38,604 nt of DNA from Actinomycetota bacterium (lineage in GTDB: Bacteria; Actinomycetota; Acidimicrobiia; Acidimicrobiales; Acidimicrobilacustridaceae): positions 1-38,604 of the forward strand of contig WLCQ01000007.1 of assembly GCA_009705225.1 (NCBI GenBank), in the 5' to 3' direction. Positions within the stretch are counted from its first letter, which is position 1. Each line of letters opens with the position of its first letter. Below, in pieces: positions 16,594-36,257 of this stretch. The notes under the pieces were generated by a model. That model was not told the DNA's origin, made no database searches, and saw nothing but the letters and a program-made list of their open reading frames with translations. Position numbers and translations under genes: made by a program.

Positions 16594-17538
16594 TCAGGCC
16601 TCCTCGGTCGCGGTTTCGGCTGCGGGAGCTTCGGCGGCAGGAGCTTCGGCAACAGGCGCCTCAGCAACGGCTTCGTCGGCGGCGTCAGCGGCTGCCGCAC
16701 GCTCAGCGGCGATACGGGCCTCACGGGCAGCGGCAGCTTCGGCGGCCTGACGACGAGCATCGGCCTGGGCGGCTTCGTGCTCAGCGATCTCCTCGGCGGT
16801 GCGCTCGACGACAGCCGGGCCCTCAGGGGCAACGGCGCCGCGCTTGCGGGAGGCAATGAAGCGACCTTCGGTGACGGCGTCAGCGATCACGCGGCACATG
16901 AGATTGGCCGAACGGATGGCGTCGTCGTTACCGGGGATCACGTACTGGATGATGTCGGGATCGCAGTTGGTGTCGACGACGGCGACGATCGGAAGACCGA
17001 GCTTGTTGGCCTCGGTCACTGCGATGTCTTCCTTCTTCGTGTCGAGCACGAAGATGGCGCTCGGGGTGCGCTCCATGTTGCGGATGCCGCCGAGGTTGCG
17101 CTCGAGCTTCTCGAGTTCGCGGCTGATGAGGAGGGCTTCCTTCTTCGGCATGGCCTCAAACTCACCAGAGTCACGCATGCGCTGATATTCCTTCATCTTC
17201 GCAACGCGCTTGGACATGGTCTGGTAGTTGGTGAGCATGCCGCCGAGCCAACGCTCGTTCACATAGGGCATACCGCAGGACTCGGCATAGCTGCGCACCG
17301 GATCCTGGGCCTGCTTCTTGGTGCCCACGAACAAGATGGTGCCGCCGTCGGCAACGAGATCGCGCACGAAGCTGTACGAGGTCTCGATACGTCCGAGGGT
17401 CTGCTGGAGATCAATGATGTAGATGCCGTTGCGCTCACCGTGGATGAAGCGCTTCATCTTGGGGTTCCAGCGTCGGGTCTGATGTCCGAAATGGACACCT
17501 GCCTCGAGCAGCTGGCGCATCGTTACGACTGGAGCCAT
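16594..17538 (-). CDS. rpsB: 30S ribosomal protein S2
   Basis: Small-subunit protein. The 314-aa sequence starts [20 protein letters not shown] and contains [34 protein letters not shown] and [13 protein letters not shown]. The last 70 or so residues are a low-complexity Ala/Glu-rich tail with a repeated [15 protein letters not shown] pattern, probably disordered and partly coiled coil. The ATG at 17538 has AAGGA six bases upstream. It heads the rpsB-tsf-pyrH-frr run and follows a 187-base leader region. Confidence 0.97.
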
Positions 17539-17725: not shown

Positions 17726-19456
17726 TCAGTCGTCGTCCACCAGTGCCCCGACACCAGCACCGATCGCGGCCAGTGGCGGCGATCCACCGACAACGCCGAC
17801 GGCGATGCCTGCTCCGGCGGCTGATTCGGCGACCGAGACCCCCTCTGCCATGAGGAACGAGCCAGCGGCCTCGGTGAAACCCTGACACGTAAGTGGCAGT
17901 CCGGCCACAGCCAGTCCCAACTCACGAGTCACGCGGGAGTCGCCGGGCAGGTGGCCATGCACAGCGAGATCCAGTTCGGTGGGCAAGATCCGTTGGTCGT
18001 CGGCTGCCGGATCCGAGGTGGCGACCCCCGGAACGACGAGATCCCCCGAACCGCCGAGCGAGACGAACCGAACGTGCTGAGGCATCGGTGTCGAACGGAG
18101 TTCCTGAATCACCGGGGAGGTCTCGGCCAGGTCGGCCATGGCGGGAAGACGATCGTCGAGGTCCCCAGCGAGGTGACTGCTGCGCACGGCACCGAGTACC
18201 CCTCTACCCGCGGCGGTCAGCCCGACCGCAGCGACGCCGGTCGCGAGCGGCGCTCCCGCATGGGGTGATCCAACCGTGACAAGAGTCGAGACAGATGACG
18301 GCAGATCGCCCGCCCGATCGGCCCGTTCCACGGCGAGGCGGGCCACGACTCCACCCTGGGAATGGGCGAACACATCGATCGGCACCCCGGGATTGTCACG
18401 AGCGGTTGCGGAGATGAGCGCGGCCAGTCGATCGGCGGAAACACCCACCGGTTGCTGCGAATCGATGCGATCGAACTCACTCCAGCCACTACCCGATGCT
18501 TCAAGGGCGGATATCCCGGGCCGTCGTGGAGGAACTCGCCCGCCGTTGTAGGAAAACCGGACGACGTCATCGGGGGCGTATCCGAGTCGGTCGGTATCGA
18601 ACTCCCACGCCGAGTTGTCGTCGCTCGCGGTCCCGAGCCCACTCACCTCGATCACGATCCGGCGTGCGGTCGGGCTGGGGACCGGCACCGACTCATCAGT
18701 GCAGTTCATGCGCTGCTGCGCCCATCGCACGAACGCGGTGGCCGCCCGGAACTCAACCGCCACAGCCGAGAGCGTTGTTGCGTAATGAGCGCCTATCGCG
18801 GCGATGTCGACACCCGTGCGGGCGAGGTTGGCGATCGCTGCGGACCCCGTATCGAACAGCACGTGCATGAGCGAGCGATGCTCCCCTCCGCCGAGAGGTG
18901 CGAGGCCCTCGTCTGCTCCCGGGACGAGCCGGGTCGATGGCTGCTCTGCGCCCGACAGCACGGCTTCGGGGTCGAGATACGAACCATCGGGGGTGCGGAA
19001 GCCGAGGTGGAACGGACCCGCGGCTGTTCCGACCGACGCTCCCCGACGTACCCGGTCACCGCGGGCGACTGCGATCGTGGCAAGGAAGGAGTACGAACTT
19101 CGAAGACCATCTGTGTGTTCGATCGTGACATGCAGTGCCCCGCCGACCTCGCCGGCGAACACCACGGCCCCTTCGGCAACGGCGGAGATCTCAGCGCCAG
19201 CAGTGGTTCCGTAATCACTACCCCGGTTCCCGGGACCCCACTCCCCCTTCGGGGGACGGAAGTGATCGACGATCGGCGCATCGCAGGGAGGGCTGTACAC
19301 GACTGTTCCCGAGGCGACAGCGACAGCTGCTGTCGGCACCGAACCGGACGCAGCGGCGTCCCTGGCCGTGACGACGGTGCATGCGATCAGACAGAAGGTC
19401 GTGACAATGACGGCCAGCGCGATCGCGCTGACCCGAGTAACGCGGGCGCGTTGCAT
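17726..19456 (-). CDS. Secreted LytM/M23-like domain fused to an alpha/beta-hydrolase (lipase-like) domain
   Basis: A 576-aa protein with an N-terminal hydrophobic segment (about residues 9-28: signal peptide or anchor). Residues 55-165 read as an M23/LytM fold (GSDYGTTAGAEISAVAEG, then VTIEHTDGLRSSYSFL), but two zinc-ligand positions look lost: the usual HxGxD-type histidine is Asn77 (Asp81 kept), and the first His of HxH is Pro148 (His150 kept). Residues 265-510 look like an alpha/beta hydrolase with AHSQGG (nucleophile Ser366), SGDLVVPG (Asp472) and VHGHLPG (His500 or His502). The C-terminus is Gly/Ala-rich and hydrophobic. An M23 gene between xerC and rpsB is known in actinobacteria, so the LytM part fits the locus and the lipase part is the addition. 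Substrate unknown; an envelope lipid or ester is possible. The start ATG has GAGGGG upstream. Confidence 0.7.
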   Translation of the reverse strand: MQRARVTRVSAIALAVIVTTFCLIACTVVTARDAAASGSVPTAAVAVASGTVVYSPPCDAPIVDHFRPPKGEWGPGNRGSDYGTTAGAEISAVAEGAVVFAGEVGGALHVTIEHTDGLRSSYSFLATIAVARGDRVRRGASVGTAAGPFHLGFRTPDGSYLDPEAVLSGAEQPSTRLVPGADEGLAPLGGGEHRSLMHVLFDTGSAAIANLARTGVDIAAIGAHYATTLSAVAVEFRAATAFVRWAQQRMNCTDESVPVPSPTARRIVIEVSGLGTASDDNSAWEFDTDRLGYAPDDVVRFSYNGGRVPPRRPGISALEASGSGWSEFDRIDSQQPVGVSADRLAALISATARDNPGVPIDVFAHSQGGVVARLAVERADRAGDLPSSVSTLVTVGSPHAGAPLATGVAAVGLTAAGRGVLGAVRSSHLAGDLDDRLPAMADLAETSPVIQELRSTPMPQHVRFVSLGGSGDLVVPGVATSDPAADDQRILPTELDLAVHGHLPGDSRVTRELGLAVAGLPLTCQGFTEAAGSFLMAEGVSVAESAAGAGIAVGVVGGSPPLAAIGAGVGALVDDD

Positions 19457-19487
19457 GATCCCCCTCGAGGGTCGGCAGCTGAGGGGG
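19454..19487 (-). promoter_or_regulatory. Hairpin that can mask the LytM/lipase gene's ribosome-binding site
   Basis: Seven-base perfectly complementary arms (19481-19487 and 19460-19466) with a 14-base loop lie in the 42-base gap between xerC and the fusion gene. The arm next to the start codon is the Shine-Dalgarno itself (GAGGGGG, three bases before ATG 19456-19454). Pairing would hide the ribosome-binding site. The pairing is seen; control by it is inferred. Confidence 0.4.
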
Positions 19488-19498
19488 AAGTTCGGGAA

Positions 19499-20419
19499 CT
19501 ACGCGCGGGGGTGGGTTGCGTCGAGCACGTTGCGGAGACGCTGCTTACTCACATGGGTGTAGTGCTGGGTGGTGGAGAGGTCGGCGTGGCCGAGCAGTTC
19601 TTGGACCGCACGCAGATCGGCGCCACCATCGAGCAGATGTGTGGCGAAGGTATGACGCAGCGCATGCGGATGGGTGGGCGATGGCGCCCGCCGATCAAGC
19701 AGCCTGCGGACATCTCGCGGCCCGAGCTGTCGACCCCTCTGATTCAGGAACACGGCATCAGCCGGCGAGTCGGCGGTGGCGATCACCCGTCGACCATGGT
19801 CGAGCCATTGACGCAGCGCGTGACAGGCCGGCTCGCTCAGCGGCACCACCCGTTGCTTCGAGCCTTTGCCCCAGACCACGACCCGACGACGGGCAATGTC
19901 GAGATCCTCTGGGCGCAGACCGCACAGTTCGGAGACTCGCAATCCGCTCCCGTAGAGCAGTTCGAGAACGGCGTCGTCGCGGGACCGGATTGCCGGAGTG
20001 TCATTGGCGGTCGTACCCGGCGGATCGTCGAGGACTGCGATGAGTTCGTCGTCGCGCAGCACTCGCGGCAATCGACCAGAACCACCGGGAGCACTCAGAC
20101 CCGCCGAAGGATCACTGGTCAGCAGCCCGGTGCGGGTGAGCCAACCGAAGTATCGCCGTAACGCCGACGCCTTTCTGGCGATTGTGCGTCGGGCGTACTG
20201 ACGAGTTGCCAGCGAGCCGACGTAGCGGCGCAATGTGGTGCGCGTGACTCGTATCGGGGAGTCGAGTTCCGCCCGTTCGCACCAGATGACGAAACTGTCG
20301 AGATCGGATCGATACGCCCGCAGCGTGGCCGCCGACACCGAGGTGAGCGAGGAGCAGAACGCATCGAGTGACCAGAGGTCGGAGTCAGATGCCACCGCGG
20401 TAACTGTACCCGTGCGCAT
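19499..20419 (-). CDS. xerC: Tyrosine recombinase XerC
   Basis: Site-specific recombinase that resolves chromosome dimers at dif. The 306-aa protein has an N-terminal SAM-like domain (TLRAYRSDLDSFVIWC) and a catalytic domain with GLRVSEL (Arg), KGSKQR (Lys), HALRHTFATHLL (His and Arg), LGHAD (His) and the nucleophile Tyr287 in QHYTH. The start is uncertain: ATG at 20419 gives a typical length and is used here, but an ATG at 20488 overlaps the dprA stop as ATGA, a junction common in this operon, and would add 23 residues. The chromosomal context (comM-dprA-xerC) argues for the housekeeping enzyme over a phage integrase. Confidence 0.9.
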   Translation of the reverse strand: MRTGTVTAVASDSDLWSLDAFCSSLTSVSAATLRAYRSDLDSFVIWCERAELDSPIRVTRTTLRRYVGSLATRQYARRTIARKASALRRYFGWLTRTGLLTSDPSAGLSAPGGSGRLPRVLRDDELIAVLDDPPGTTANDTPAIRSRDDAVLELLYGSGLRVSELCGLRPEDLDIARRRVVVWGKGSKQRVVPLSEPACHALRQWLDHGRRVIATADSPADAVFLNQRGRQLGPRDVRRLLDRRAPSPTHPHALRHTFATHLLDGGADLRAVQELLGHADLSTTQHYTHVSKQRLRNVLDATHPRA

Positions 20420-20484
20420 GTTCGATTCGATCGGATACACGTGCAGCAGACCAACATCTCGTCGTCTGTGAGCGCTCGAGGAGA

Positions 20485-21657
20485 TCATGAACGCGAGCGC
20501 CCGATCCGCTCGACCCAACCGGCTCGTTGGGCCACCCAACCCTCTGCTTCGAGAGCGTCGATGTGGAGTGCGAGAACCCCGAGATCGAGCCCGGTGGCGA
20601 GCAGAAGTTGTTCCATCGGAGCGGCCTGCCACGCGATGTGCTCAAGTACCGCTGCAGCTTCGGGCGAGGGCGGGCGACGCGATTCAGTCGCTGATCGGCG
20701 CGGAACCGAATCGCGCCCCAGTGCGATCAGGACATCGGTTGCATCGCGCGCGGGCACGCAGCCGTCGACGAGCAATTGGTTCGTACCGTCCGAACTCGAC
20801 GCCGTGACCGGACCGGGCACCGCCATGACGACCCCGCCACGCCGGGTTGCCTCGATGGCCGTTCCCATCGCCCCTCCGGTGTGTTGGGATTCGACCACGA
20901 TGAGCGCATCAGCAAGCGTCGCGATCAGGCGATTGCGCGCCGGGAATTGCCAGGCCGCCGCTGGTGCGCCCAGCGGATACTCGCTGATGATCACTCCGGC
21001 GTCAGCGACTCGGCGCCACAGCGCAGCGTGGGCTCGTGGGTAGATACGGTCGAGCCCGCTGCCCACCACCGCAATGGGCGGCGCGGCGCAGGCCTCGAGT
21101 GCACCGCTGTGGGCTGCTCCATCGATGCCGAGGGCAAGGCCCGAAACCACAGCGATACCGGCTGCGGCGAGATCCCGACCCAACTCGAACGCGACATCGC
21201 GTCCGTAACGCGACGCTCGTCGGGTGCCGACGAGCGCCGCTCTAACGCCGGCGAGGTGATCGAGATCACCTTTCCAGAACAGGACCATCGGCGGATCATC
21301 ATCAGCGGCGAACACGGGCGGAAATGACGGGGAACCGAACACCGTGACACCGATGCCGGCATCGAGGTGAGCCTGCCAGAAGGTCGAGACATCAAGGGAT
21401 CTGGCGGCCCGACCCCACAATTCGATGAGCCCTACCCGTTGCGTTTCCGAAAGCCGATCGAGACCGTCGGCCATCAACTTCCCCACCACTGAACTGCGCT
21501 GCGAGGTCGACTCCGAGGGCGACACCCGACAGAGCGACTCCCAGACCTCCGATGGCTCACCGACGCACAGCAGCGAGCGAAGGCGTGCCGGACCGACCTG
21601 GGGCAATCGAGCCAGTGCAACAACGAACGCGTCGGAAGGAATGGCCCGCCGACTCAT
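20485..21657 (-). CDS. dprA: DNA-processing protein DprA
   Basis: Binds incoming single-stranded DNA and loads RecA during transformation. The 390-aa protein has an N-terminal helical region (LARLPQVGPARLRSLL), the Rossmann-like core with ALVGTRRASRYGRD, VVSGLALGIDGAAHSGAL, SEYPLGAPAAAWQFPARNR and VVESQHTGGAMGTA, and a C-terminal winged-helix-like domain (about residues 330-385). The ATG overlaps the comM stop by four bases. With comM upstream it suggests the cell could take up DNA, although no uptake-pore genes lie in this window. Confidence 0.95.
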   Translation of the reverse strand: MSRRAIPSDAFVVALARLPQVGPARLRSLLCVGEPSEVWESLCRVSPSESTSQRSSVVGKLMADGLDRLSETQRVGLIELWGRAARSLDVSTFWQAHLDAGIGVTVFGSPSFPPVFAADDDPPMVLFWKGDLDHLAGVRAALVGTRRASRYGRDVAFELGRDLAAAGIAVVSGLALGIDGAAHSGALEACAAPPIAVVGSGLDRIYPRAHAALWRRVADAGVIISEYPLGAPAAAWQFPARNRLIATLADALIVVESQHTGGAMGTAIEATRRGGVVMAVPGPVTASSSDGTNQLLVDGCVPARDATDVLIALGRDSVPRRSATESRRPPSPEAAAVLEHIAWQAAPMEQLLLATGLDLGVLALHIDALEAEGWVAQRAGWVERIGRSRS

Positions 21658-33932: not shown

Positions 33933-36257
33933 ATGTCTGCTGTTGTCGAGTCACCAGAGCGCCATCAACGGGTTCACTCCCGGCGCCGGAGTCATCTGGC
34001 AACCTCGCTCGCGATCATCTTCGCCTTCATGCTCACCCTCGATGGATTCGGATTCTGGGCGCAGGACTCCGTGCTCAGCAGCACGCGTTTCGCCGACAAT
34101 TCGGTGCGCCTGCTCGAGTCGACCGCCGTTCGCTCGGCACTTGCCGATGCCATCACCGAGAAACTGGTGGAATCGGGCCCTTCGCGGCTGGCCTCGTTCC
34201 AAACCGTGCTGCATCCCGCCATCGAACAGCTGCTCAACACCGACGTGTTCCGCTCGATCTTCCGAACGGCGATTGTCCGCGCCCAGGATGCGATCCTCAC
34301 CGAAGATGGCAATGCGGCAGCGATCAATCTGAGTGCGGCATTGAGCGTGCTGAGCGGAAGCCTCCAGGTCACCAACCCGGATCTCGCCGACTCCATCCCG
34401 AGCGGCACCGACGACTTCTTCGTGAATGTCAGCTCGACGTTGCGCAGCGCCCAGCCGTGGAAGGTCGCCAGATCATCGGGCGAGGGAACGCTGCGTTCGC
34501 TCGTCGTCCTCATCATCATGGGGACGGCGATCATCCTGCTCGAGGTTGAGCGGCGACGCGGGGTCCTCAAGCTCGGCATCGCGATCGCCGTGGCGGGTTC
34601 GGCATTGTTCGCGCTCGCCGTCGCTGCTCCCATCATCGCCGCATCATTCGGATCGACTCCGACGATCAAGCAGGCACTGAATGATGGCGCCGGGATCTTC
34701 TTCGAAAGCCTCGTCTCGATCGCGATCCATCTCGCCGCGATCGGGATCATCGTGTGCGCGTTCAGTATCGCAACGCGACCCGACCGCCCCCCGCTCTCCC
34801 CCGTCGAAGTGTGGGCATTCACCCGTGCTCGCGCCAGCAGATGGTCACCCACCTCGCCCGCCGGCCACGTGGTGCGGGCACTCGTCATCATGACCCTCGG
34901 GTACATCCTCATCGTCGCCCGTGATGTGGTCGCACCTCTGCTCGTATTCCTCGGCGGCGCCTATGTCGTGTACCTCGGGGCGATCGAACTGCTGAGCATC
35001 GTGGGTCGGTCCGATCATCGGAGCGTCCGAACGATTGCGTCCGAACATGCCCACGCGCAGGTGGTCAGGATCCGCTCACACCGGATTCTCGGAGCGTCCC
35101 TTGCGCTCATTGTTCTCGTCGCCGGGGTCGGGTTCGCAGTGCGCTCGGGAGGTCGTGCGTCGGCCGACGCCCAACAACGGTGCAACGGCTATGTCGAACT
35201 GTGTGATCGACACCTCGACGAAGTTGCCTTCGCCGCTTCGCATAACTCGATGTCAGCCCGGCGCGATCCGGGTTGGTTGTTCGCTGAACACGATCAGGGG
35301 ATCCCGGCCCAACTCTCGTTCGGCATCCGGGCGCTGTTGGTGAAGACGCACTACGGCGTCCCCTCCGGACTCAATGTGACCGGAGCACCGCTCGTGGTCA
35401 CCGACCAGGGTGCCGAGTTGGCGACCTCCACACCCGAGGCCAGCGCACTGCTCACACCCGAGCAGCAGCGACAGGCCGCCGCTATCGCCGCATCAGCAAA
35501 GGTCGACTCTTCATTGCGTGATGTCTACCTCTGCCATGTGAACTGCGAACTCGGTGCCACGAAGTTCACCGATGCGCTTCGCTACGTGCGTCAGTTCCTC
35601 GATGCACATCCGGACGAGGTCATCATGCTCGTCGTCGGCAATTACGTCTCCGATGCCGACACGGAGAAGGCGTTCCGTGACGCCAAACTCTTCGATCGCC
35701 TCTGGAATGTCGAACCCGGCGCCGGTTGGCCCACGCTTCGCGACATGATCGATTCCCGTCGCAACATCGTCATGTTCGCCGAGTTCGGTTCGGCCCAGCC
35801 ACCATGGAACTCCTCGGCCTACGGCGCCTTCCAGGACACACCGTTCACCTTCCGCACCCCGGAGGAACTCCTCACCCCCGGAGCGCCCGGCTACACCGGC
35901 GACGCCGTGGTCGACGGCCCAGTTCCAGCAACCGTCGCCAACCCCACCCCAACCGACCCCGCCGCGGTGTCGTTCGTACCCCCTTGGGACTGGACCGGTG
36001 TTCCCAGTTGCGCCCCGAACCGGGGGACGCCGGATTCGCCGCTGTTCCAGATCAACCATTGGGTCACCCCATCGGGCGAGGCGGCCACTGCAGCACAGGC
36101 GAAGATCATCAACGCCTACGACGTCCTGATGCCCCGGGTTCGCAACTGCATGACCCAGCGGGGTCGGTTCCCGAACCTCATCGGGGTCAACTTCTATGAC
36201 AAGGGCGATCTCCTGCGGGTGGTCAACGAGGTCAACGGAGTCGACGGGACCAGATGA
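33933..36257 (+). CDS. Polytopic membrane protein with a C-terminal PI-PLC-like domain
   Basis: A 774-aa protein. A membrane part has hydrophobic segments at about 22-43, 187-203, 211-238, 255-279, 309-356 and 382-400; its first loop (VLSSTRFADNSVRLLES and on) resembles the long first loop of a group of actinobacterial membrane proteins. From residue 415 on, the sequence fits a phosphatidylinositol-phospholipase-C X-type fold: FAASHNSMS (His437), GIRALLVKTHYG, and YLCHVNC (His535) followed by FLDAHPDEVIMLVVGN. The two histidines are the expected catalytic pair. The domain would lie outside the membrane. Likely a phosphodiesterase acting on a lipid or lipid-linked glycan, but the substrate is unknown. 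ATG at 33933 has GAGG nine bases upstream. Confidence 0.72.
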   Translation: MSAVVESPERHQRVHSRRRSHLATSLAIIFAFMLTLDGFGFWAQDSVLSSTRFADNSVRLLESTAVRSALADAITEKLVESGPSRLASFQTVLHPAIEQLLNTDVFRSIFRTAIVRAQDAILTEDGNAAAINLSAALSVLSGSLQVTNPDLADSIPSGTDDFFVNVSSTLRSAQPWKVARSSGEGTLRSLVVLIIMGTAIILLEVERRRGVLKLGIAIAVAGSALFALAVAAPIIAASFGSTPTIKQALNDGAGIFFESLVSIAIHLAAIGIIVCAFSIATRPDRPPLSPVEVWAFTRARASRWSPTSPAGHVVRALVIMTLGYILIVARDVVAPLLVFLGGAYVVYLGAIELLSIVGRSDHRSVRTIASEHAHAQVVRIRSHRILGASLALIVLVAGVGFAVRSGGRASADAQQRCNGYVELCDRHLDEVAFAASHNSMSARRDPGWLFAEHDQGIPAQLSFGIRALLVKTHYGVPSGLNVTGAPLVVTDQGAELATSTPEASALLTPEQQRQAAAIAASAKVDSSLRDVYLCHVNCELGATKFTDALRYVRQFLDAHPDEVIMLVVGNYVSDADTEKAFRDAKLFDRLWNVEPGAGWPTLRDMIDSRRNIVMFAEFGSAQPPWNSSAYGAFQDTPFTFRTPEELLTPGAPGYTGDAVVDGPVPATVANPTPTDPAAVSFVPPWDWTGVPSCAPNRGTPDSPLFQINHWVTPSGEAATAAQAKIINAYDVLMPRVRNCMTQRGRFPNLIGVNFYDKGDLLRVVNEVNGVDGTR

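Follow-up and report, generated by a model that had tools for sequence, protein, structure and literature searches.

In LytM, the zinc ligands of the M23 peptidase site are H210, D214 and H293, and the catalytic residues are H260 and H291. A LytM fold that has lost its catalytic residues is found in EnvC, NlpD and DipM, the last of which is a degenerate amidase activator, and it is also found in the protein reported here; EnvC, NlpD and DipM are activators of amidases, and they differ from the latter in having no hydrolase partner. Closer in terms of genomic location is the Rv2891-type protein, which likewise carries an M23 domain at the rpsB locus, is short and secreted-looking, and is devoid of the catalytic histidine pair (YEP and CLHWG patterns). 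Unlike the fused protein, it has no hydrolase half, keeps the zinc triad H-D-H and is often encoded on the opposite strand. The mycobacterial and streptomycete-type members of our survey are presumably orthologues of Rv2891, as judged from the locus and from general knowledge.

Mycobacterial M23 proteins, including M. tuberculosis Rv2891, have been listed as genes of unknown function (PMC8594824), and a review of the M23 family counts over 1,000 architectures, with the word lipase being absent from its text (PMC9662197). The preliminary description of this DNA knew of no described family with a LytM domain followed by a hydrolase, and our search of the open-access literature likewise found no description of this order, an absence that constitutes weak evidence.

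The fused gene and its locus

The gene analyzed here is a single open reading frame of 576 aa with an ATG start, located in the 38,604-nt stretch of DNA that was analyzed as a whole (hereafter, the window). The gene, its parts and its neighbours are as follows:

17726..19456, minus strand: fused gene, comprising signal-like N-terminus, LytM/M23 pseudo-peptidase, linker, alpha/beta-hydrolase and C-terminal tail (ORF, Pfam, same-slot homologues)
19343..19456, minus strand: residues 1-38, signal-like N-terminus, basic with a hydrophobic core and AAAS (sequence, by eye; N-termini of 66 homologues)
18953..19309, minus strand: residues 50-168, M23/LytM domain (Pfam PF01551; PDB profile matches)
18674..18949, minus strand: residues 170-261, variable linker (alignment; pairwise comparison)
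17873..18673, minus strand: residues 262-528, alpha/beta-hydrolase domain (Pfam; PDB profile matches to LipA-type lipases)
17729..17872, minus strand: residues 529-576, Ala/Gly-rich tail, weakly conserved (alignment)
16594..17538, minus strand: rpsB, downstream neighbour (Pfam Ribosomal_S2, 6e-98)
19499..20632, minus strand: xerC/D tyrosine recombinase, upstream neighbour (Pfam Phage_integrase, 3.5e-44)

The Pfam matches to M23, Ribosomal_S2 and Phage_integrase fall in the corresponding places, bearing out the earlier assignment of a LytM/M23-type gene to the slot between xerC and rpsB. The gap to rpsB is 187 bp and that from xerC/D is 42 bp, the real start of xerC/D lying probably inside its open reading frame; dprA and comM are found further upstream, beyond the recombinase gene. 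The linker is 61% identical to that of the nearest relative, as against 76-77% for both domains. A lipobox-like LIAC (residues 23-26) shows no conservation across the N-termini of the 66 homologues, and lipoprotein status was dropped because this motif varies among relatives.

No plasmid copies of the gene were found, a scan for promoters and terminators yielded no candidates, and no tRNAs or RNA families were detected within the window. An antisense open reading frame of 599 aa (18362-20161, plus strand) covers the fused gene over its 5' half and extends into xerC. A comparable antisense frame is open in a related locus (L031, 604 aa), and the one in the window is probably a by-product of the codon bias that accompanies a high GC content. 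Elsewhere in the window, Pfam returned nothing at E<=0.001 for a 774-aa multi-pass membrane open reading frame (33933-36257, plus strand), part of which (AASHNSMS...) resembles by eye a PI-PLC X domain.

Active-site residues of the two halves

The Pfam Peptidase_M23 family (PF01551) matches residues 77-145 with an E-value of 1.1e-12 and 48.4 bits, against a gathering score of 28.7, and alpha/beta-hydrolase families are recovered in the same protein, as the preliminary description had anticipated. With a profile built from 37 fused homologues, the best PDB match of the M23 half is DipM (7qrl, 1e-19), followed by zoocin A (5kvp, 2e-19) and, more distantly, LytM (2b0p, 1e-8); the single sequence retrieves M23 enzymes and activators with its first half and a lactonizing lipase with its second. 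The protein falls short of the NCBIfam equivalog cut-offs for DipM (34.1 bits versus 900) and NlpD (30.6 versus 311), as well as of those for EnvC and ActS. The residue register was set by aligning the profile with zoocin A (GHVGVD, YAHL, PHLHF) and DipM, and these alignments, together with column counts, locate the active-site positions of the M23 half as follows:

19226..19228, minus strand: Asn77, replaces the zinc-ligand His (first His of HxGxD)
19214..19216, minus strand: Asp81, zinc-ligand Asp retained
19085..19087, minus strand: Phe124, replaces the catalytic His of the YAHL motif
19013..19015, minus strand: Pro148, replaces the catalytic His (first His of HLH)
19007..19009, minus strand: His150, zinc-ligand His (second His of HLH) retained

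Given this register and the residue roles established for LytM, one zinc ligand and both catalytic histidines are gone, so that three of the five positions expected of an active M23 enzyme (HxGxD, HLH and the YAHL His) are replaced. Asn77 and Pro148 had both been singled out as substitutions in the preliminary description, rightly in both cases, the former standing at a zinc-ligand and the latter at a catalytic position; an intact zinc site, which that description had named as grounds for abandoning its reading, is spoken against by Asn77. An AlphaFold model of the window protein, computed with one relative as the only other sequence, had a mean pLDDT of 32 and was set aside.

In the hydrolase half, overlapping matches to several alpha/beta-hydrolase families cover approximately residues 340-406 (DUF7379, 2.2e-9; PGAP1, 1.5e-6; Palm_thioest, 3.6e-6), and the hydrolase halves alone match LipA-type lipases in PDB profile searches, with a best E-value of 1e-10. 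The residues of its putative active site, none of which varies among those fused members of the family that are alignable in the region, are:

18359..18361, minus strand: Ser366, nucleophile in AHSQGG
18041..18043, minus strand: Asp472 of the triad
17957..17959, minus strand: His500 of the triad

These three residues fall on the Ser/Asp/His triad of LipA in the profile alignment, yielding the ordered triad with nucleophile elbow of a lipase or esterase-type enzyme. The earlier proposal of AHSQGG, Asp472 and His500 thus stands, whereas its alternative His502 is variable in the fused family and is discarded. Bacillus LipA-type and lactonizing lipases (Pfam DUF7379/PGAP1-like/Palm_thioest) are alpha/beta-hydrolases that share with this half the AHSxGG elbow and the Asp and His in the LipA register, but they are remote (profile E-values of around 1e-9 to 1e-10), and the hydrolase described here is joined to a LytM domain and was never seen free-standing in the surveyed genomes. 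The hydrolase also matches weakly a PHROG phage 'endolysin' family (phrog_102, E 0.005), which we report as a lead only.

Distribution and history of the fusion

Homologues were identified in 263 of the 395 Acidimicrobiia genomes searched. Many of them are full-length, with frames of mostly 520-690 aa, and others consist of the M23 part only (~170-250 aa). Within the Acidimicrobiia, homologues that align end to end span approximately 24 family-level groups; they are also present in two other groups of Actinomycetota and in most cases occupy the same locus, the order xerC, fused gene, rpsB recurring across many families. The nearest named relative belongs to a Microthrixaceae MAG (73% identity), and among fused relatives Pfam detects M23 in 37 of 37 and DUF7379 in 35 of 37. 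A phylum-wide search located the fused protein also in groups f69/f113 of the genome survey, where it occupies the slot, and in f61, where it has been relocated and adjoins carbamate-kinase-like and permease-like open reading frames in the loci read. In f61 (L146, L147 and L148) a sigma-factor-like open reading frame lies between xerC and rpsB, the M23 gene being elsewhere.

The hydrolase appears to be tied to this arrangement. A profile of the hydrolase half matched 47 of 246 genomes of the class (E<=1e-25), once per genome, and all these matches lie in frames of at least 522 aa, save those in G028 (contig end) and G149 (frameshifted). Among 248 genomes of the phylum, the 23 with the strongest matches (E<=5e-39) harbor them in frames of at least 494 aa, and the next-best matches (2e-18 and weaker) are generic lipases. 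A search for a free-standing hydrolase in 30 unfused genomes revealed no member of the family and only weak generic matches; G012 and G028, which were also searched for a separate hydrolase, proved to be of the fused type or at a contig end. Hence, in the Actinomycetota genomes surveyed, the hydrolase occurs once per genome and essentially never outside the fusion.

The frameshift in G149 (f11, L051:2986-4498) affects the hydrolase half and leaves two overlapping frames, and similar breaks are seen in L036 and L038; they may reflect either real decay or assembly error. A window-type hydrolase was also observed within a 743-aa frame in G735, from group f96. A different protein of this group (G539, L105:3315-5237, plus strand) likewise presents, in 640 aa, an M23 domain (1.6e-21) followed by an alpha/beta-hydrolase, but the latter is an Abhydrolase_8 (PF06259, 8e-36) with an HSYGS elbow, and the gene lies outside the xerC-rpsB slot. 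The same two fold types thus seem to have been joined independently a second time within the phylum.

The history of the fusion was analyzed with trees of both halves. The M23 tree comprises 102 rows and excludes several large M23 proteins (L101-L104, L109, L110, L125 and L128) that keep HLH and look like paralogues. On this tree, which is unrooted and of low resolution (134 columns, with 48 forks left open), the fused state requires 13 changes, four of them forced by well-supported branches, and families f6 and f19 contain unfused rows nested with fused ones, suggesting repeated loss of the hydrolase. The hydrolase tree groups its members by taxon, separating the order of the window, the other orders of the class, f69/f113 and f61. 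Because it tracks taxonomy, the fusion is taken to be old and is likelier to have been lost elsewhere than gained here; the latter was the view of the preliminary description, which does not agree with the wide occurrence of fused homologues either. The simplest account, on grounds of parsimony rather than proof, would be a single ancient fusion passed on by vertical descent, from which the hydrolase was lost several times.

The active-site residues of the peptidase were counted over all rows. The YAHL histidine is present in none of the 102 slot proteins and the first histidine of HLH in six, so that almost no row has the catalytic pair, whether the protein is fused or not and including the unfused actinobacterial members. 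The zinc triad H-D-H, on the other hand, is retained in almost all rows outside the Acidimicrobiales, while within this order 52 of 53 rows have Asn in place of the HxGxD histidine, the change of Asp to Glu being common. Judging from these columns, loss of the histidine pair is general to the slot family and the change to Asn, often accompanied by that to Glu, is specific to the Acidimicrobiales; this distribution implies that decay proceeded in at least two steps, neither of which is tied to the genome studied here. Metal binding and some residual activity may persist in the few proteins that keep HLH and in the groups outside the order that keep the full H-D-H triad, which are the majority there. 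Among slot proteins of the Acidimicrobiales, His150 is conserved in 32 of 33 fused rows versus 14 of 20 unfused ones (from loci such as L048, L058, L067 and L068), as if attachment of the hydrolase went along with stronger constraint on the LytM site.

Proposed role of the fused protein

The reading that we consider reasonably probable is that of a secreted envelope protein, the product of an ancient fusion, in which the LytM pseudo-peptidase would serve as a binding or regulatory module for a complete lipase or esterase-type hydrolase. What the sequences themselves show is the order of the domains, a conserved triad, the loss of catalytic histidines, synteny, purifying selection and obligate linkage; the mechanism is put forward as a model. 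The gene product would be exported to the cell envelope, as the signal-like N-termini of the homologues suggest, where its LytM domain, presumably no longer able to cut peptidoglycan, might bind the wall, as the preliminary description had proposed, or, in the manner of EnvC, NlpD or DipM, dock to a partner involved in wall division. In either case it would hold or gate the hydrolase, with its Ser366-Asp472-His500 triad, which may cleave an acyl ester there. The short, M23-only slot protein would be what was left after the hydrolase half had been lost, an event that would have happened repeatedly. We prefer the hydrolase as the working part because conservation of the triad is complete, and attribute to the LytM domain a role of its own because, in much of the phylum, the locus has kept the short form by itself.

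That the two halves are separate genes joined through a sequencing or assembly error, as the preliminary description had considered, has a negligible probability. The same fused frame recurs in scores of independent genomes, and comparison of the window gene with its nearest relative gives a dN/dS ratio of approximately 0.14 in both halves, which are thus under purifying selection, and 0.21 in the linker, with dN also well below dS in closer pairs from other groups. A frameshift does split the gene in one relative, G149. It is also very improbable that the LytM domain retains peptidase activity with a modified metal site, since the retention of Asp81 and His150 has to be set against the replacement of a zinc ligand by Asn77 and of both catalytic histidines by Phe124 and Pro148.

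Two further explanations concern the job of the protein. The protein might be mainly a regulator of cell-wall amidases, akin to EnvC, NlpD or DipM, with the hydrolase fold as a structural or switch module; the LytM domain is degenerate, DipM is its best PDB profile match, and the persistence of slot members without hydrolase indicates that the LytM part has its own job. Nonetheless, a triad that is invariant even in other actinobacterial groups is unexpected in a structural module, and we regard this explanation as unlikely. A surface lipase with a nutritional role, for which the LytM domain would be the wall anchor and which would feed lipid scavenging, would fit the resemblance to LipA and lactonizing lipases and the Microthrixaceae affiliation of the nearest named relative, Microthrix being a lipid consumer with reported surface-associated lipases (PMC8267870; PMC11495043). 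It seems nevertheless a rather poor candidate, for a single copy at a conserved ribosomal-protein locus in many unrelated Acidimicrobiia and two other groups suits better a housekeeping envelope role, and such wide distribution argues against a purely nutritional one.

Extending the envelope reading, it is conceivable, as a tentative proposal, that the fused protein represents an undescribed ancient envelope factor of early-branching Actinomycetota, in which a LytM pseudo-peptidase is obligately coupled to an esterase family of its own and acts as a wall-gated deacylase whose substrate is either a lipid of the envelope or an acylated polymer of the wall, with the Rv2891-type protein as its enzyme-less derivative.

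The fusion is not a local oddity, since many early-branching actinobacteria keep it beside a ribosomal gene, and it involves a hydrolase family seen in this one fusion only. Much of the phylum conserves an M23 protein next to rpsB, among them the mycobacterial member of unknown function, and the intact enzyme attached to it here provides a handle on the role of the locus, as the target of the esterase should indicate which process the pseudo-peptidase takes part in. Likewise, the stepwise decay of the M23 active site and the accompanying domain-loss series are testable in cultured Acidimicrobiia.
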